Positions 23,898-35,246 of a stretch of DNA of 64,000 nucleotides are shown one piece after another. This DNA comes from Halobaculum sp. MBLA0143 (lineage in GTDB: Archaea > Halobacteriota > Halobacteria > Halobacteriales > Haloferacaceae): positions 2,046,001 through 2,110,000 of the forward strand of contig NZ_JBGKAC010000001.1 of the NCBI RefSeq assembly GCF_041361465.1. Reading direction: 5' to 3'. The notes below the pieces were generated by a model, which was given only the letters and a program-made list of their open reading frames with translations, was not told the DNA's origin and did not search any database. How positions within the stretch are numbered: position 1 is the first letter of the stretch; the number at the start of each line of letters is the position of its first letter. The position numbers and the translations under genes were made by a program.

Positions 23898-24404
23898 TCA
23901 GATGGAAACAGTACCGGAGAGCTGCACCTCGTCTCTGTGTGAGTAGTGTTCGACGTGGACTCGTTCGATTTCGTGTTCCCCGCCAGTCAGAACAGTGACG
24001 AGGTACTGAACGGTGGAGGCGTTTTCCTCACAGCCACCAGGACCGAGATCGATCCCGTTCCGAATGGTCACACGTAGCGTGTCGTCGCGGAGTTCGATCC
24101 GGGAGACACGGGTCTCCCGGCAGTCTGGGTCACCGATTCCGGTCGTCGCACCTCTGATTAGAATTCGATCTTCCCTCCGCTCGGCTCCGGAGGTTCCATC
24201 AAGACGACCCGAAACGTCGCTCGGCACCTCCGATGGATACTCTATTCCATCGATAGACCTGCAGGGCCGTCCGATCACCTCCCCACAGTAGACGATTTCC
24301 ACTCTCCGCCGTGGGATCCCGACGATCGTCGCCGGGCGACGCTCGGTCAGACACCCCGCGAGCCCGCCGACCGCGACCGCCGACAGCAACGCACGTCGCT
24401 TCAC
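23898..24404 (-). CDS. Array lipoprotein 1 (cysteine-containing paralogue)
   Basis: 168 residues from GTG 24404. First of five tandem paralogues. The shared signal MKRRALLSAVAVGGLAGC carries a twin-arginine pair and lipobox. Four cysteines after the lipidated one match the array pattern: CGEVIGRPC, GDPDC and GGCEEN, enough for two disulfides outside the cell. The core ILIRGATTGIGDPDCRETRV and the VEHYSHRDEVQLSG end are family hallmarks. It is the most diverged copy in its middle segment (DVSGRLDGTSGAERRED). No known family recognised. Confidence 0.75.
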   Translation of the reverse strand: MKRRALLSAVAVGGLAGCLTERRPATIVGIPRRRVEIVYCGEVIGRPCRSIDGIEYPSEVPSDVSGRLDGTSGAERREDRILIRGATTGIGDPDCRETRVSRIELRDDTLRVTIRNGIDLGPGGCEENASTVQYLVTVLTGGEHEIERVHVEHYSHRDEVQLSGTVSI

Positions 24405-24425
24405 ACTCGTTATTTCATCGACTTA

Positions 24426-24437
24426 CATATAAGTCTA
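24426..24437 (-). promoter_or_regulatory. Conserved promoter box of array lipoprotein 1
   Basis: TAGACTTATATG on the minus strand, its TAGA end 33 bp before the start codon. It matches the boxes of the other four copies (consensus TAGAYYYAT). Confidence 0.6.
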
Positions 24438-24440
24438 TCC

Positions 24441-24962
24441 TTATCCACGTTGACTCTCTGGCGGATAGATGATGTCCGACATCATCTCTTCACCCTCCGT
24501 AGAGTAGTGGACGATCCAGACTCGCTCGACGCGCTCGGTGTCTTCTGGACCGATAGCGACGCGGTAATTGATTTCCTTGGAGTACTCGATACACCCAGGC
24601 GGGAGCGGGCTCTCACTGTTCCGAACCAACACCCACAGCACTCCATCGGTCAGTTCGATCGTCCAAACACACTTCGCGCGACAGTTCTGGTCTCCACTGC
24701 CGGGAATGTACCCTCTAACGACGAGACGACCGTCTTCCAAGTACGCCGTTGCGCCGCCGGCGGACTGAATCTGTACCTGAAGCTCCCGGTCAACGGGCCG
24801 TTCCATCGAGTTGACCTGAGCGCACGGTCGTCTGATCACCTCGCCGCACGTCTGCACGTCGACCGGCTGATTTAATCCCACGACGGTGGGCGGCTTCCGG
24901 ACGGACAGACACCCCGCGAGCCCGCCGGCCGCGACCGCCGACAGCAACGCACGTCGCTTCAT
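24441..24962 (-). CDS. Array lipoprotein 2 (cysteine-containing paralogue)
   Basis: 173 residues. Start ATG 24962 is preferred to ATG 24971 because it matches the other copies exactly and the promoter box spacing. Signal and lipobox as in copy 1. The cysteine motifs are CGEVIRRPC, GDQNCRAKC and PPGCIEY; the extra cysteine in RAKC is shared only with copy 3. Closest relative in the array is copy 3 (GGATAY, DGRLVVRGYI, WTIEL, GPEDTERVE shared). Confidence 0.75.
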   Translation of the reverse strand: MKRRALLSAVAAGGLAGCLSVRKPPTVVGLNQPVDVQTCGEVIRRPCAQVNSMERPVDRELQVQIQSAGGATAYLEDGRLVVRGYIPGSGDQNCRAKCVWTIELTDGVLWVLVRNSESPLPPGCIEYSKEINYRVAIGPEDTERVERVWIVHYSTEGEEMMSDIIYPPESQRG

Positions 24963-24981
24963 GCCCGTCATTCCGCAAACG

Positions 24982-24995
24982 CATGAATAAGTCTA
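24982..24995 (-). promoter_or_regulatory. Conserved promoter box of array lipoprotein 2
   Basis: TAGACTTATTCATG on the minus strand, its TAGA end 33 bp before the ATG at 24962. This spacing decides that start. Confidence 0.6.
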
Positions 24996-25009
24996 GGGAA
25001 CTGCCGGCG

Positions 25010-25522
25010 TTAGGCTGCCGACCGGTAGACGATGTCTGACATTATTTTCTCACCGTTCGTGGAGTAGAGGACGACCCAGACTTTCTCGACGCGTTCGGTG
25101 TCTTCTGGCCCGAGAGAAACGCGATAATTAATCGTCCCGATGTCCTCTGTACAGCCGGTCGAAAGCGGATTCTCTCTGTTCTGGACCGATACCCACAGCA
25201 CTCCGTCGATCAGTTCGATAGTCCAGTCGCAGTTCGTTCGGCAGTTCGGATCCCCGTTACCGAGGATGTACCCTCTGACGACGAGACGGCCGTCCGCTGT
25301 GTACGCCGTCGCCCCACCGACGAACTGAATACGGACCTGAAGCTCCTCCTCGGTGAGCCGTTCCATCGAGTCGACCCGAGCGCACGGTCGGCCAATCTCT
25401 TTGCTACACGTCTCCACGTCGACCGTCTGATCCAGCCCGACGACGGTCGGTGGCGTCCGGACGGACACACACCCCGCGAGCCCGCCGACCGCGACCGCCG
25501 ACAGCAACGCACGTCGCTTCAT
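25010..25522 (-). CDS. Array lipoprotein 3 (cysteine-containing paralogue)
   Basis: 170 residues from ATG 25522. Cysteine motifs are CSKEIGRPC, GDPNCRTNC and STGCTED. The body resembles copy 2, while the stretch after the lipobox (VSVRTPPTVVGLDQTV) is identical to copy 4. This mosaic pattern indicates recombination or gene conversion within the array. Confidence 0.75.
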   Translation of the reverse strand: MKRRALLSAVAVGGLAGCVSVRTPPTVVGLDQTVDVETCSKEIGRPCARVDSMERLTEEELQVRIQFVGGATAYTADGRLVVRGYILGNGDPNCRTNCDWTIELIDGVLWVSVQNRENPLSTGCTEDIGTINYRVSLGPEDTERVEKVWVVLYSTNGEKIMSDIVYRSAA

Positions 25523-25546
25523 ACCAGATCAACTCGAATCGGGGCC

Positions 25547-25556
25547 GATAGGTCTA
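25547..25556 (-). promoter_or_regulatory. Conserved promoter box of array lipoprotein 3
   Basis: TAGACCTATC on the minus strand, its TAGA end 34 bp before ATG 25522. It is the most GC-rich variant of the array box. Confidence 0.5.
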
Positions 25557-25572
25557 GGGAAGATTCACAGTC

Positions 25573-26085
25573 CTACGCCGCCGCGATGTCGATCGTACCG
25601 GATAAGATTACACCCCGTTTGTCTGAACGGTGTTCGACGTGGACAGCCTCGACACAATCACTCTCTCCCGTGTCGAGTCCAATCCGGTACTGTACCGCTC
25701 CAGCGCTCTCCTCGCACAGAACTGGAAAGACGCTCGCGCCGTCCCGAACGACGACGGCCAGCGTCTGTCCTCGTAGCTCGATCCGTGAGACGTGCGCTGC
25801 ACGGCACTCCACGTCTTCGACCCCAGTCACGAATCCTCTGACGACGAGTGAGTCGTCCGTGCGGTAGACGGCGACCCCGCCACCGACCGCCTCGCGTATC
25901 TGAATGGGCCGGTCGATGAAGCGGTCGATTCCGCGGACGGAGTCACAGGGCCGATCGATCGGCTTCCCACAGCGGGACATTTCGACCGTCTGATCCAGCC
26001 CGACGACGGTCGGTGGCGTCCGAACGGACACACACCCCGCGAGCCCGCCGACCGCGACCGCCGACAGCAACGCTCGTCGCTTCAC
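25573..26085 (-). CDS. Array lipoprotein 4 (cysteine-containing paralogue)
   Basis: 170 residues from GTG 26085, chosen by comparison with the other copies and promoter spacing; ATG 26091 would add two residues. Cysteine motifs are CGKPIDRPC, EDVEC and PVLCEES; an additional cysteine lies in ESDCVEAV. The N-terminal 30 residues match copy 3, but the body (VRGFVTGVEDVECRAAHVSR, VEHRSDKRGVILSG) is closer to copies 1 and 5. Confidence 0.75.
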   Translation of the reverse strand: MKRRALLSAVAVGGLAGCVSVRTPPTVVGLDQTVEMSRCGKPIDRPCDSVRGIDRFIDRPIQIREAVGGGVAVYRTDDSLVVRGFVTGVEDVECRAAHVSRIELRGQTLAVVVRDGASVFPVLCEESAGAVQYRIGLDTGESDCVEAVHVEHRSDKRGVILSGTIDIAAA

Positions 26086-26108
26086 ACCCATATCAGTTCA
26101 ACCGAGAG

Positions 26109-26120
26109 TAAATGAATCTA
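26109..26120 (-). promoter_or_regulatory. Conserved promoter box of array lipoprotein 4
   Basis: TAGATTCATTTA on the minus strand, its TAGA end 35 bp before GTG 26085. Confidence 0.55.
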
Positions 26121-26137
26121 GGCAACAACGGCCAGCC

Positions 26138-26647
26138 TCACGCCGGAGACACGTCGACGGTGCCAGAGAGAATCTCGTCGCCGTCGTCGGCGTAGTGCGT
26201 CACCCGGACGCGCCGGATTGCCGCGTCCTCGTCGGCGACGGCGACGCGGTAGTGGACCGAGCCGGCGTCCTCCTCACAGCCCCCCGAGAGGTCAGTCTCG
26301 TCGTGGACCGACACGGAGAGCGTTCCGTCGCTCAGTTCGACCGTCGAGACGCCCCCCTCCCGACAGCTTGGGTCGCCGATACCGACGATCCGCCCTCTGA
26401 CGACGAGTCGATCCGTGGCTCGGTACACCGTGACGACGCCGCCGAGTTGCTCTCGGATGTCGATCTCGCGGTCGATGGAGTTACGCATCCCCACGGCGAG
26501 GCCGCACGGCCGGCCGATCAGCGTCCCGCAGTGGGTGGTGTCGACCCGTCGGTCGTCGATTCCGCTGACCCGCGGCGACGGCTGGCCGGTCAGACACCCC
26601 GCGAGCCCGCCGGCCGCGACCGCCGACAGCAACGCTCGTCGCTTCAC
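26138..26647 (-). CDS. Array lipoprotein 5 (cysteine-containing paralogue)
   Basis: 169 residues from GTG 26647. Signal MKRRALLSAVAAGGLAGC as in copy 2. Cysteine motifs are CGTLIGRPC, GDPSC and SGGCEED. The core is the most GC-rich and regular of the five (RLVVRGRIVGIGDPSC, YRVAVADEDAAIRRVRVTHY, GDEILSGTVDV), so it may be the ancestral copy. The array ends here; an unrelated redox gene follows on the other strand. Confidence 0.75.
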   Translation of the reverse strand: MKRRALLSAVAAGGLAGCLTGQPSPRVSGIDDRRVDTTHCGTLIGRPCGLAVGMRNSIDREIDIREQLGGVVTVYRATDRLVVRGRIVGIGDPSCREGGVSTVELSDGTLSVSVHDETDLSGGCEEDAGSVHYRVAVADEDAAIRRVRVTHYADDGDEILSGTVDVSPA

Positions 26648-30480: not shown

Positions 30481-30592
30481 ACGAGAAGCTACTGTGTCTC
30501 GTAAACATAGTTCTTTCGCGAGAAATTCGACACAGAGGCGTGGAAGAAGGACGACCGACGCGCTTGAGTGGTCCGGTCCCGGACGGTCTCGT

Positions 30593-30820
30593 GTGGCTTG
30601 GGACCAGACGGAGACGGTGGACACGGTGACGGAGTGGGAACGGACGGACGGTACCGCGACCGTCCGGATCCGCGAACGGCCGGACGGCCGGTTCGTCGTC
30701 CGGGTGGACAGACTCCAACAGGCCCCGGAGGGGCCGGCCTACGAGCGAGCGACCGCCGACGACCGCGACGACGCGGAGACGCTCGCCGAGACGTTTCGGG
30801 AGCAGTTCGACGTTCAGTAG
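30593..30820 (+). CDS. Small conserved haloarchaeal protein (75 aa)
   Basis: Starts with GTG 30593; an upstream in-frame ATG is less likely because its extra residues are basic and unlike the rest. The compact body (TEWERTDGTATVRIRERPDG, then FVVRVDRLQQAPEG and a C-terminal helix) looks like a small beta-beta-beta-alpha fold seen in uncharacterised haloarchaeal proteins. Its end overlaps the convergent permease gene by a few bases. Confidence 0.65.
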   Translation: MAWDQTETVDTVTEWERTDGTATVRIRERPDGRFVVRVDRLQQAPEGPAYERATADDRDDAETLAETFREQFDVQ

Positions 30821-31680
30821 TCGCCCAACACCCCCCGCCGGCGGGCGCGTCCGAGACAGACCCGGAACACCGCGTACCCCGCGGCGAGATAGCCGCCGGC
30901 GGCCGCGAGCGCGACGGCGTGATCGGTGAGCGAGAAGGCCGACAGCCCGACCCCCTCCCGCATCGCCCGCCCGAGCATGACGTTGGCCTGGACGACCGGT
31001 AGCGCCCGTAGCCAGGGGAACTCTCCGACCGGCGCAGCGATCAGCGCGACCAGCGCGAACGTGAACAGCGTGGTCGCGCTCTCCAACCGCTTGACCAGAA
31101 GCGCCACGCCGCCGACGGCGAAGCCGACACCGAGAAACGGCGCCGCCGCGAGGACGACCAATGGGACGACGGTGAACGGGTCGATCACCAGGGTTTCCCC
31201 GGTGATGAGGAGCGCCAACACGAGGTGCGCGAGGATCTGGAACGACGACCAGAGGAACTCAGCGGCGACGGTCGCCCCGAGGACGGAGCCGAAGCCGAGC
31301 GGCGAGAGGTAGAGCCGTTCCAGCGTCCCCCACTGTGCCTCCTGTGTGACGATCGACGAAGCGGCGCCGAACGCGGTCTGTGCGACGAAGAAGACGAAGT
31401 AGCCGACGACGACTCCGCCGAGCTGTTCGCCGAACGAGGGGCCGGCGATGCGGCGACCGCCGGCGACGATCCCGACGAGCACGAACAGGAATCCGACCTG
31501 ACCGAGCAGAAAGTTCGTCGCGTACCGGAGCGTCGTCGTCACCTCCTTGCGAAACACACTCGTGAACAGCCGCCAAGCCGACACGAGCCGTCGAGGGTCG
31601 TCCGGCCGAGCGGGGTCGTCCGGCCGAGCGGTGCCCAGGAACCCCGTCTCGGAGCCGTCCCCGCGGCCGTCGTCACTCAC
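30814..31680 (-). CDS. ABC-2 type transporter permease
   Basis: 288 residues, about six transmembrane helices. Partner of the ATPase gene just upstream. The fold follows ABC-2 exporters: an N-terminal interface helix (RLFTSVFRKEVTTTLRYATN), membrane helices, and the conserved EAQWGTLERLYLSPL loop. It overlaps the ATPase gene; GTG 31680 is preferred, GTG 31689 adds three residues. The divergently placed secreted peptide 1.2 kb away is a candidate cargo or a regulated neighbour. Confidence 0.85.
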   Translation of the reverse strand: MSDDGRGDGSETGFLGTARPDDPARPDDPRRLVSAWRLFTSVFRKEVTTTLRYATNFLLGQVGFLFVLVGIVAGGRRIAGPSFGEQLGGVVVGYFVFFVAQTAFGAASSIVTQEAQWGTLERLYLSPLGFGSVLGATVAAEFLWSSFQILAHLVLALLITGETLVIDPFTVVPLVVLAAAPFLGVGFAVGGVALLVKRLESATTLFTFALVALIAAPVGEFPWLRALPVVQANVMLGRAMREGVGLSAFSLTDHAVALAAAGGYLAAGYAVFRVCLGRARRRGVLGDY

Positions 31681-32665
31681 CCTCTTCACCCCCGGTGAGC
31701 CGCAGGAACACCTCTTCGAAGTCCGGTTCGACCGACTCTACCCGGGCGAGTCGGCCGTCCGCGGCCGCGAGATACGAGACCGTCTCCGCGAACGCGTCCT
31801 CGTCGCCGACGGTGACGGTCGCGGTGACTCGGTCGTCCGTCTCGTCGTACACCGTCACCGTACACCGGCGTTCGAGCCCGTCGCGGAGTCCGTTGCCCGG
31901 CGTCTCGAGTGTGAACTCGTACGTCTGGGTGCGAAACAGGTCCAAGAGTGCGTCCACGCTGTCGTCGGCGACGACCTCGCCGTCCGACAGCACAACCACA
32001 CGGTCACACAGATCCTGAATCACGTCCATGTCGTGACTCGACAACACCACCGCCAGGTCCTCCTCGGCGACGAGCGAGGCGAGTTCCCGTCGAAGTTCGA
32101 GGGAACTCTCTACGTCCAGCCCCAGCGTCGGCTCGTCTAAGAACACTACGTCTACGTCGCGCGCAAGTGTCGTCGCCAGCGACACCTTCTGTTTCATTCC
32201 GCGCGAGAGTTCTCGCACCGGATCGTCGGCCCTGTCGGCGAGTCCGAACCGCTTCAGCAGTTCGTCGTGGCGGTCACGGAGCCGGTCCGTGTCCCGCCCC
32301 GCGACGCCAGCGAAGAACTCCAGGTTCTCCCGGGGCGTGAGTCGCCAGTAGACGTTTCGCGCCCCCTCCAGCATCGCCGCGGTGTGTCTGTGGACGACCC
32401 GCGGGTTCGCCTGCGCGTTGACGCCCGCGACGGCCACGTCCCCGCCCGTCGGCTCTACGAGCCCGAGCAGACAGCTCAGACACGTCGTCTTGCCCGCGCC
32501 GTTCGGCCCGAGCAGTCCGACGACCTCGCCGGGGCGGATCTCGAAGGAGACGCCGTCTAACGCACGGAATTCGTCGTACTCTTTCCGGAGATCGCGGACG
32601 GCGACAATAGGCACATCCGATTTCTTACTGGTTTCCAAATCGTACTGATCTTTTGCTGACATCAT
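31673..32665 (-). CDS. ABC transporter ATP-binding protein
   Basis: 330 residues. Complete ATPase motifs: Walker A LLGPNGAGKTTCLS, signature LSRGMKQKVSLA, Walker B DVVFLDEPTLGLD and the switch histidine in LSSHDMD. The C-terminal 100 residues form the extra domain typical of drug or peptide ABC-2 exporters. Two adjacent ATGs start it (32665 and 32662). The first 20 residues (KDQYDLETSKKSD) are less GC-rich than usual for this genome. First gene of a two-gene operon. Confidence 0.9.
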   Translation of the reverse strand: MMSAKDQYDLETSKKSDVPIVAVRDLRKEYDEFRALDGVSFEIRPGEVVGLLGPNGAGKTTCLSCLLGLVEPTGGDVAVAGVNAQANPRVVHRHTAAMLEGARNVYWRLTPRENLEFFAGVAGRDTDRLRDRHDELLKRFGLADRADDPVRELSRGMKQKVSLATTLARDVDVVFLDEPTLGLDVESSLELRRELASLVAEEDLAVVLSSHDMDVIQDLCDRVVVLSDGEVVADDSVDALLDLFRTQTYEFTLETPGNGLRDGLERRCTVTVYDETDDRVTATVTVGDEDAFAETVSYLAAADGRLARVESVEPDFEEVFLRLTGGEEGE

Positions 32666-32856
32666 GGGGCCTCTTCGTCCTTCTGTGAGAACTTAGTTGT
32701 ATACTAATGAGTGTTATGAAACTGAAAATATGAAAAATAACTCTCAGATACTAGTTACTACTTATTTCTCTGAATTGAACGTCTTTTTTCTGTTATTTTA
32801 TTCTTACACTGTTGATATTCATTTATAATGCTTCGTGGGAGATTCATGTGTGCACT
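32666..32856. promoter_or_regulatory. AT-rich divergent spacer between ABC exporter and peptide genes
   Basis: About 190 bases that are strikingly AT-rich compared with the surrounding sequence. Toward the exporter, ATTAGTATACAAC (32697-32709, minus strand) contains a TATA-like palindrome roughly 32-44 bp before its ATG. Toward the peptide gene, TTTATAAT lies 28-35 bp before its ATG. Poly-T tracts near 32785 add curvature potential. The composition suggests imported DNA. Confidence 0.65.
32822..32829 (+). promoter_or_regulatory. TATA box of the secreted peptide gene
   Basis: TTTATAAT, 28-35 bp upstream of ATG 32857. The spacing makes that ATG the leaderless start and excludes the in-frame ATG at 32812, which lies before the box. 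Confidence 0.7.
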
Positions 32857-33099
32857 ATGTCAGAGAGCACTCGACTCGGTACGCTCCTTCGACTGACGCT
32901 AGTAGTTTCGCTCATCCTCTCGTTCACAGGGGCTGGTGTTGCAGCGCCGGCAACGGACACTGGTGAACTGGACGCACAGCCGACTCTGTCTGAGTCGCTC
33001 ACTCAGGTGACTCCGAGTGCGGCCACCGAACAGGTCGCCAACCCGGAGGCAATCTGTATCAAGATAAGCAAGGGGAAGATAGTGATCGTCACATGCTGA
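32857..33099 (+). CDS. Small secreted peptide precursor with two-cysteine hairpin core
   Basis: 80 residues. A basic start and hydrophobic stretch (LRLTLVVSLILSFTGAGVAA) form a signal peptide, likely cleaved near Ala30. A Thr/Ser/Glu-rich propeptide-like section of about 35 residues follows. The C-terminus reads EAICIKISKGKIVIVTC, with Cys67 and Cys80 flanking alternating hydrophobic and polar residues around an SKGK turn. That is the pattern of a disulfide-closed beta-hairpin, cationic in its loop. It faces an ABC exporter across an AT-rich spacer. A halocin-like or signalling peptide is possible; no known family recognised. Confidence 0.65.
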   Translation: MSESTRLGTLLRLTLVVSLILSFTGAGVAAPATDTGELDAQPTLSESLTQVTPSAATEQVANPEAICIKISKGKIVIVTC

Positions 33100-33126
33100 C
33101 CTGAGTGGTCAAGCACAGCCTCGTTA

Positions 33127-33954
33127 CTACAACTCCGGCGGCTCGTCGTCCTGGAACCGTTTCGTCGTCTCGACGAGCGGGTGGCGGGCGTAGTCGACCA
33201 CTTCCACGTCGCCGATGCCGGTGAGGCCCTCCTTGCGCGCGGTGCGTTCCATCCCCAGTTCCACGCCGTCGGCGGCGTCGATGACGATCACGTACGCGTC
33301 CATCTGGTCGACGCCGACGCGGTCGCCGGCGAGCACGCGGTGGTGGCCGTCCGCGAGCACGAGTGTGCCGGCGTTGTCGATCACGACCAACGGCTCCGCG
33401 AGCCCACGCTCCAGTTCGTACGTCCGACCGGCCAGTTCGTCGGCGTACACCCGGGCCTGCGTGGGGACGAGCGTCGACAGCGACACCTCCCGGCGCTCCT
33501 GGCTCACGGTCACGTCGTGGATCTCCTCCAACGTCCGCATGAGCTTGCCCACCTTCTCCGGGGTGGCGCGTTCGATCTGGCTGCGGATCACGTCCGTGTT
33601 GGAGATGATACCGACGAGGTGGCCGGCGTCGTCGACGACCGGGAGCTTCTGGATGCCGGACCGGAGGATCACCCGCGCGGCGTCCGTCACGTTCATCTCC
33701 GGGTGCGCGACGATGATGTCGTCGGACATCGCCGTGAACAGGGGCGCCGAGCGGTCCGCCAACAGGAGGTCGCGGGCGGAGACGAAGCCGACGACCTGGC
33801 GGCCGTCCGTCACCGGGAACCCGTTGTGGCCCTCGCTCTCGGCGATTCGCTCGGCCACCTCGCGGACGGTGTCGTCCGGCGACACCGTCGCTACGTCGCG
33901 GGTCATGTACTCCGCGACCTGCGCCTTCGACGTGTCGCTCCGGGAGTCGCTCAT
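33127..33954 (-). CDS. CBS-pair protein with ParB-like C-terminal domain
   Basis: 275 residues from ATG 33954. Two CBS motifs occupy about 12-150 (VAEYMTRDVATVSPDDTVRE and DDIIVAHPEMNVTDAARVIL), usually an adenosyl-nucleotide sensor. The rest resembles a ParB/sulfiredoxin-type nuclease-like domain: EEIHDVTVSQERREVSLSTL, then LVLADGHHRVLAG. There is no helix-turn-helix, so it is probably not a chromosome-partition protein. This combination recurs in haloarchaea; its substrate is unknown. Confidence 0.82.
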   Translation of the reverse strand: MSDSRSDTSKAQVAEYMTRDVATVSPDDTVREVAERIAESEGHNGFPVTDGRQVVGFVSARDLLLADRSAPLFTAMSDDIIVAHPEMNVTDAARVILRSGIQKLPVVDDAGHLVGIISNTDVIRSQIERATPEKVGKLMRTLEEIHDVTVSQERREVSLSTLVPTQARVYADELAGRTYELERGLAEPLVVIDNAGTLVLADGHHRVLAGDRVGVDQMDAYVIVIDAADGVELGMERTARKEGLTGIGDVEVVDYARHPLVETTKRFQDDEPPEL

Positions 33955-34007
33955 CGTCTCTGATTCGGTTGGCCGCCCGAAAGAGTTTGTGACCCTGCCG
34001 TCCGCCG

Positions 34008-35246
34008 TCACACGTCGTCGACACCGGTCGTCGGCGGATCGCCCGCCGTCACGACCTCGAACCGGACGCCACAGTCCGCCATCGGGCCGTCGTCGGTGTC
34101 ACCGAGCCGGATCGTCCAGCCGTGCGCGTCCACCACCTCCGCGACGATGGAGAGCCCGAACCCGGTGCCGTCGCTGTCGGTGGTGTACCCACGGCGGAAC
34201 ACCGCCTCGCCGGCGTCCGCCGGGAGTCCCGGCCCGTCGTCGGCGACGTAGAAGCCCGGCTCGTCCGGGAGGTCGCCGACGGCGACGCACACTCCCTCGC
34301 CGCCGTGGTCGACGGCGTTGCGGAACAGGTTCTCGAACAGCGTTCGGAGTCGTTCGCGGTCGGCCGACACGACGAGCTCCGTGTCCACGGTCAGCGTCGC
34401 GTCGTCCGTCGGCGAGGTGCTCCAGGCCGCCGACACCACCTCGCTGACCGGGACCGGAGCGGTCGCCTCCACCGGCGTGCCGCTGCGGGCCAGCGTGAGC
34501 AGCCGGTCGATCATCTGTTCCATCCGTTCGAGCGCCCCCTCGGCGGCCGCCAAGTCCTCTGGGTCGTCCCGTTGTGTCGCCAACTGGACTCGCCCCTGGG
34601 CCGTGTTGAGCGGGCTCCGGAGGTCGTGACCGAGGATACCGGCAAACTCGTCGAGCCGGTCGTTCTGGCGGGCCAACTCCGCCGTCCGGCGGCGCAGTCG
34701 CTCGTCGCGCTCGGCGCGGTCCAACGCCGCCGCGACGTTGGCCGCGAACACCGCCAGCAGCTCCTCGTCGCCCGCCGTCACCGTCTCGCCGGACCGCGAG
34801 CCCACGGTCAACACCCCGCGCCCGTCCAACGGGGCGACGAGCAGACTCCCGGCACCGGCGCGTTCGACGTCGTCGTCGACCTCCGACACGTCCGAGAACA
34901 CGAGCAGTTCGTCCTCGTCCAGCGCACGCCACTGGACCGACTCACCACGGTCGTACGGCTCGCGTTCCCCCAACAGCTCCTCGACCGCCGGCGACACCGC
35001 CGCCGGCTCCAGTGTCTCCGTCTCCTCGTCGTACAGCCGGACGGTGTTGAGCTCGAACCCCAGCACGGACTCGGCCTGCTCGGCGGCCACCTCGCAGACG
35101 CCACACTGGTTGCCGGCGCGCAACAGCTCCCGCGTCGCCGCGTGGAGCGCGTGGAGTCGGTCGTCCGTCTCCGGGTCGTCTGCTCCCGACGCCTCCGGAT
35201 CCGGGTCGTCTACCCCCGACGCCTCCGGATCCGAGTCGTCTGTCAC
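34008..35246 (-). CDS. GAF-domain sensor histidine kinase
   Basis: 412 residues, cytoplasmic. After an Asp/Glu-rich head with a doubled DPEASG(V/A)DD unit comes a GAF domain (about 35-180). A HisKA dimerisation helix follows with the phospho-acceptor in GILGHDLRSPLNTAQG, then HATPase_c with the N box LFRNAVDHGGEG, G1 VADDGPGLP and G2 GTGFGLSI. All key residues are present. Its ATG overlaps the end of the upstream kinase gene (ATGA), so the two kinases are co-translated. No receiver gene is adjacent. Confidence 0.92.
   Translation of the reverse strand: MTDDSDPEASGVDDPDPEASGADDPETDDRLHALHAATRELLRAGNQCGVCEVAAEQAESVLGFELNTVRLYDEETETLEPAAVSPAVEELLGEREPYDRGESVQWRALDEDELLVFSDVSEVDDDVERAGAGSLLVAPLDGRGVLTVGSRSGETVTAGDEELLAVFAANVAAALDRAERDERLRRRTAELARQNDRLDEFAGILGHDLRSPLNTAQGRVQLATQRDDPEDLAAAEGALERMEQMIDRLLTLARSGTPVEATAPVPVSEVVSAAWSTSPTDDATLTVDTELVVSADRERLRTLFENLFRNAVDHGGEGVCVAVGDLPDEPGFYVADDGPGLPADAGEAVFRRGYTTDSDGTGFGLSIVAEVVDAHGWTIRLGDTDDGPMADCGVRFEVVTAGDPPTTGVDDV

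Follow-up and report, generated by a model that had tools for sequence, protein, structure and literature searches.

Organization of the locus

The locus lies in a 64-kb stretch of the genome of Halobaculum sp. MBLA0143 (hereafter the window, meaning the whole 64,000 nucleotides that were analysed). A small open reading frame (ORF) is transcribed divergently from the genes for the ATPase and permease of an ABC transporter and converges with a gene for a CBS-domain protein, from which it is separated by 27 bp. The following features were recognized:

30494-30820, plus strand: DUF7543 protein on the other flank of the ABC pair, conserved in the genus
30814-31689, minus strand: ABC-2 permease, orthologue of the CBS-linked permease in same-genus genomes, strongly accelerated
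31673-32665, minus strand: ATPase of an ABC-2 type exporter, DrrA-like (family match; Walker A and B, signature and H-loop seen by eye)
32666-32856: AT-rich spacer between the divergent genes, 33% GC, part of a lineage-specific segment that parts the CBS and ATPase genes
32822-32829, plus strand: TATA-like TTTATAAT upstream of the peptide ATG (consensus by eye only)
32857-33099, plus strand: 80-aa ORF for a putatively secreted two-Cys peptide precursor (ATG start, TGA stop)
32857-32946, plus strand: putative Sec signal peptide, residues 1-30 (from sequence; helix 3-24 in the model; cleavage predicted after VAA)
32947-33054, plus strand: acidic segment, residues 31-66, predicted to be mostly unstructured (from sequence; pLDDT 52-54 in residues 31-60)
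33055-33096, plus strand: C-x12-C ring CIKISKGKIVIVTC, a predicted beta-hairpin (AlphaFold2) with a putative disulfide
33127-34011, minus strand: CBS-domain protein, ancestral neighbour of the ABC pair

At 33% GC, the spacer (32666-32856) lies far below the 69.1% of the window, and of all 191-bp intervals in the 64 kb the 15 poorest in GC fall in the spacer region. The GC scan and the gene coordinates therefore agree with an earlier note on this DNA, which had described an AT-rich spacer unlike the rest of the window with a divergent ABC pair on one side. The AT-rich character extends past the spacer to cover ~20 codons at the start of the ATPase gene, so the new segment has probably replaced the start of that gene together with its promoter. 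On the other side, the TATA-like TTTATAAT would yield a nearly leaderless peptide transcript. Rfam was searched and gave no match, and neither a sigma-70-type promoter nor a terminator was found with models that are not apt for archaea. A second copy of the inserted DNA was present neither in the same genome nor in 24 relatives.

Two near-identical 11-mers (32751-32761 and 33120-33130, 369 bp apart) lie around the insert. They may be a trace of insertion, and are too short to claim as one. Elsewhere in the window (23898-26647, minus strand), a lower-GC stretch carries five tandem, paralogous-looking ORFs, lipoprotein-like, which begin (MTG/MGV)MKRRALLSAVA(V/A)GGLAGC.

The predicted peptide precursor

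The translation of the 80-aa ORF is MSESTRLGTLLRLTLVVSLILSFTGAGVAA-PATDTGELDAQPTLSESLTQVTPSAATEQVANPEAI-CIKISKGKIVIVTC, where the hyphens mark the likely end of the signal and then the start of the C-x12-C ring. Its C-terminus is EAICIKISKGKIVIVTC, with cysteines at residues 67 and 80. Judged by eye, the N-terminus is of the Sec type, having an n-region with Arg, a hydrophobic h-region and V-A-A preceding Pro31, and neither a twin Arg nor a lipobox was seen in it. The ring between Cys67 and Cys80 comprises 14 residues, many of them beta-branched, and includes three Lys. An 80-residue precursor with a signal peptide and a C-terminal two-Cys core, as described in the earlier note, is thus what the ORF, its Sec-type N-terminus (by eye) and its two cysteines present. 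Going by these residues, the peptide is apparently secreted, and would be cleaved and closed by a disulfide.

AlphaFold2, run on the single sequence without an alignment, placed a signal helix at residues 3-24 and a C-terminal hairpin with strands at 66-71 and 74-79. The pLDDT was about 86 over the last ten residues, with a mean of 68.9, and the hairpin was reproduced when the last 30 residues were modelled alone. These models support the two-Cys hairpin layout, with the disulfide itself putative, and the beta-hairpin proposed between Cys67 and Cys80 is accordingly backed by both sequence and single-sequence fold prediction. A PDB sequence search with the peptide gave no match, nor did a fold search against solved structures return any meaningful match to the model.

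Searches for homologues and coding potential

No homologue of the peptide was found among 60 relatives, in GTDB contigs, in plasmids or in viral contigs, and none of its last 33 residues in 293 genomes of the order. When the full peptide was compared with 392 order genomes, the best E value was 0.0016 and none among the matches listed was convincing; the matches listed for the peptide queries in order genomes lay mostly within the signal or low-complexity parts. Pfam, NCBIfam and PHROGs contained no family matching the peptide.

The core was also sought as the pattern C[IVM]x[IVM]xxGx[IVM]4xC-stop, with up to 2 mismatches, in 313 genomes, the reversed pattern serving as a control. The sole exact match was that of the window, and nine others had 2 mismatches, which is about the level of the reversed control. 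Viral contigs held no match to the pattern. Four bacterial stretches among the GTDB contigs matched it exactly and were judged to do so by chance: the frame that the pattern closes is open for only 25, 35 or 40 aa in three of them, and for the fourth (L164) no ORF with this ending reached 25 aa among those listed.

The earlier note had named a lack of homologues with conserved cysteines as evidence against its proposal, and indeed none was found in order genomes, GTDB contigs, plasmids or viral contigs; the cysteines are therefore without evolutionary support. A singleton peptide ORF can still be a real gene. It might also be a young or non-functional one, if the inserted AT-rich segment were open by chance and happened to include a signal-like start and a Cys pair. 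The failure to find homologues in the collections searched agrees with such an origin, and so does a codon usage atypical for the window (GC3 of 0.62, compared with 0.80-0.94 in most neighbours examined, and rare codons, among them two ATA). Moreover, alternating sequences may readily be predicted as beta-hairpins. However, the frame of the ORF has the top codon log-likelihood of all six frames across it, and the TATA-like element is situated at a leaderless distance. In 4000 dinucleotide shuffles of the 461-bp CBS-ATPase spacer, a signal-like ORF arose 87 times and one that also had a C-terminal Cys pair 3 times, counts that are indicative only because the criterion was chosen after the ORF had been seen. 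On balance, we regard a young or non-functional ORF as unlikely.

The ABC pair and the history of the locus

Two genomes of the same genus, G002 and G001, retain the order CBS - ATPase - permease - DUF7543 but have no peptide. The distance from the CBS gene to the ATPase gene is about 124 bp in G002 and about 105 bp in G001, versus 461 bp in the window. A CBS gene adjoining the ABC pair is found in other genera and families as well (e.g. L040, L042, L045, L054, L057 and L059); in a further same-genus genome, G003, no ATPase gene was detected within 1.5 kb of the CBS gene. Because this gene order occurs elsewhere without the peptide, we conclude that a segment of ~0.35-0.5 kb entered an older locus. 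Other members of the genus, and members of other families, have the ABC pair but lack the peptide, so it was not for the peptide that the transporter was acquired.

These comparisons bear on the link between peptide and exporter that had been proposed from their position. The two are divergent neighbours, as claimed, but the ABC pair keeps its syntenic position in peptide-free genomes of the genus and of other families, and across genomes we found a single instance of the peptide rather than co-occurrence with the pair. No gene for immunity or processing was found at the locus beyond the pre-existing ABC pair, which looks intact in that its ATPase retains the catalytic motifs (by eye).

What lies in the CBS-ABC spacer varies between genomes. 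Opposite-strand ORFs occupy it in other genomes, namely a 60-aa hydrophobic one in G175, a related one in G226 and a 256-aa membrane-like one in G021, and it looks as if the spacer were a site of repeated gene gain. The longer spacers of G175, G226, G021 and G135 hold other ORFs, none listed with the two-Cys layout. This variability, like the occurrence of the ABC pair without the peptide, speaks for an orphan peptide that is genuine and secreted and serves some structural, surface or other function; it would face the ABC pair across the spacer and be unrelated to it. We consider this almost as probable as the reading favoured below, at less than one half. Against it stands the permease, which is unusually accelerated in the window lineage alone, whereas the flanking genes are not.

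Differing opposite-strand ORFs between the CBS and ABC genes were noted across genera in L140, L155 and L160.

The acceleration was apparent from counts of private changes in the window, G001 and G002, with G021 as the outgroup. For the permease the counts were 41, 7 and 12, respectively, and for the ATPase 24, 11 and 10, and the flanking genes were not faster (CBS: 4, 6 and 18; DUF7543: 4, 5 and 1). The Tajima test gave p = 8e-5 against G001 and p = 0.007 against G002 for the permease; for the ATPase the values were 0.03 and 0.58, so that the case for its acceleration is weak. In the permease tree, the window, G001 and G002 form a clade with support 100/99, in which the end branch of the window is 1.32 long, versus 0.25 and 0.40 for the others. 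The ATPase branch of the window measures 0.48, versus 0.19 and 0.23 in the orthologues. Such a permease branch can equally come from relaxed constraint or from adaptation to a new substrate, which may be one other than the peptide, and the rates do not separate these causes. Nevertheless, its restriction to this lineage favours a link between peptide and ABC pair that arose later, and the transporter may be more than a bystander.

Such a link need not involve antagonism. The peptide could be a secreted signal sensed by its producer, with the ABC pair as its exporter or as a target of the response, and both the short core at the C-terminus of a small, putatively secreted precursor and the divergent promoter region common to peptide and transporter are in keeping with this. 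However, no receptor or regulator gene was seen directly adjoining, and there is no second copy with a conserved core, which makes signalling a distinctly unlikely role.

Related ABC pairs elsewhere in the genome

The genome contains seven ABC pairs of this type. In the permease tree, three of them (L067, L068 and L070, located in L102, L100 and L098) branch as sisters of the clade that holds the window pair (support 89/90). The ABC pairs of L100 and L102 each lie near a LanM scoring above the NCBIfam cutoff and are accompanied by small precursor-like ORFs; these loci are probable class II lanthipeptide clusters. Neighbours of the pair in L098 include a DUF4135 protein, a 48-aa ORF and a DUF6895 protein, and in L099 they include a DUF6895 protein together with a 45-aa ORF. 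The positions within these loci are:

L100 9421-12633; L102 9964-13092: LanM synthetases of the same genome
L100 8436-8561; L102 9124-9282 and 9417-9590: small precursor-like ORFs near LanM
L098 8200-9795, 10785-12734 and 12966-13112; L099 6631-6768 and 6939-8249: ORFs of the DUF6895 loci

Beside the paralogous pairs we picked out no secreted two-Cys ORF of a comparable kind. Their proximity to LanM or DUF4135 proteins and to precursor-like ORFs indicates that, in this genome, transporters of the subfamily tend to accompany peptide products, and a peptide-related role of the window pair is therefore plausible.

The same neighbourhoods raise the question of a lanthipeptide-like precursor, modified in trans by a LanM of the genome via Ser/Thr and Cys67/Cys80. 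LanM synthetases are at hand alongside the paralogous ABC pairs, and the precursor-like ORFs of L102 carry ITIxISK, which resembles ICIKISK of the window core. This likeness is not significant, however, since in the best case 436 of 5000 shuffles scored equally high. Furthermore, LanM leaders are not Sec signals, and no LanM was seen by eye among the ORFs listed at 24-42 kb of the window. We consider modification by LanM highly improbable. Compared with haloarchaeal lanthipeptide clusters (PMC10105419), this genome likewise has ABC pairs of the same subfamily near LanM, but the window locus differs in having no LanM and a Sec-type signal.

Comparison with known systems

Halocins and microhalocins (HalS8, HalC8 and HalH4) are secreted proteinaceous antagonists of haloarchaea that are made as precursors. 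Both PMC12893001 and PMC10105419 cite them. The window peptide is likewise encoded as a precursor with a putative secretion signal, recognized by sequence only, but it has no Pfam or NCBIfam match up to E = 1 and only two Cys. As no known halocin family matches and its antagonism is conjectural, we do not file it as a halocin.

In Haloferax mediterranei, HFX_0892 (HmHapP) is a secreted precursor activated by a protease, which releases an antagonistic part that is N-terminal and alpha-helical (PMC12893001). The precursor plan is alike, whereas the candidate active part of the window peptide is C-terminal and predicted to be a hairpin. The animal beta-hairpin antimicrobials arenicin-1 and thanatin have one disulfide and are cut from larger precursors (PMC13001179). 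Their layout resembles the predicted one, in which the disulfide is putative, but we detected no relation in sequence or fold to solved structures.

For the ABC pair, the relevant precedents are bacteriocin transporters that serve self-protection, such as AS-48 EFGH, the one of aureocin A53, and LanFEG (PMC8538875). Like them, the window locus has a putatively secreted peptide beside an ABC pair that could expel it from the membrane, but the window pair predates the peptide and its protective role is putative. By analogy with AS-48 and aureocin A53, the locus would at best work like a Sec-secreted bacteriocin with an accessory ABC pair.

A possible model and its significance

Based on these observations, we tentatively favour a halocin-like hairpin peptide, secreted and specific to this lineage, for which the ABC pair was recruited as a means of protection or export; to this reading we give the highest probability of those considered, though one below even. 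A lineage-specific peptide gene would have entered the CBS-ABC-2 spacer, bringing an AT-rich divergent promoter region of its own. The precursor would exit the cell via Sec and be cut after VAA, and its acidic segment would be either removed or kept as a tail. Cys67 and Cys80 would close the 14-residue hairpin, which, once outside, would act on competing cells much as a small halocin does. Recruitment and retuning would have fitted the ABC pair to expel the peptide from the membrane of the producer (self-protection) or to aid its export. Protection, rather than secretion, by the ABC pair, as the earlier note suggested, would fit a Sec signal. On the other hand, three Lys would work poorly by charge in molar salt, which counts against the antagonistic reading that we favour.

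A more far-reaching version is that a new archaeal hairpin antimicrobial, arising beside an ancient ABC-2 transporter, drove the retuning of the membrane subunit into a self-protection pump, and that the birth of a toxin-immunity pair has been caught here at an early stage. This version we consider quite unlikely. To our knowledge, few antagonistic peptides of haloarchaea are known at the gene level. Even if the peptide proves inert, the locus still provides a case of an orphan ORF for a secreted product at an intergenic site of variable content. If it is active, the single-copy insert beside the transporter, together with the peptide-free state in sister species, would provide a before-and-after view of the origin of a peptide-transporter pair.
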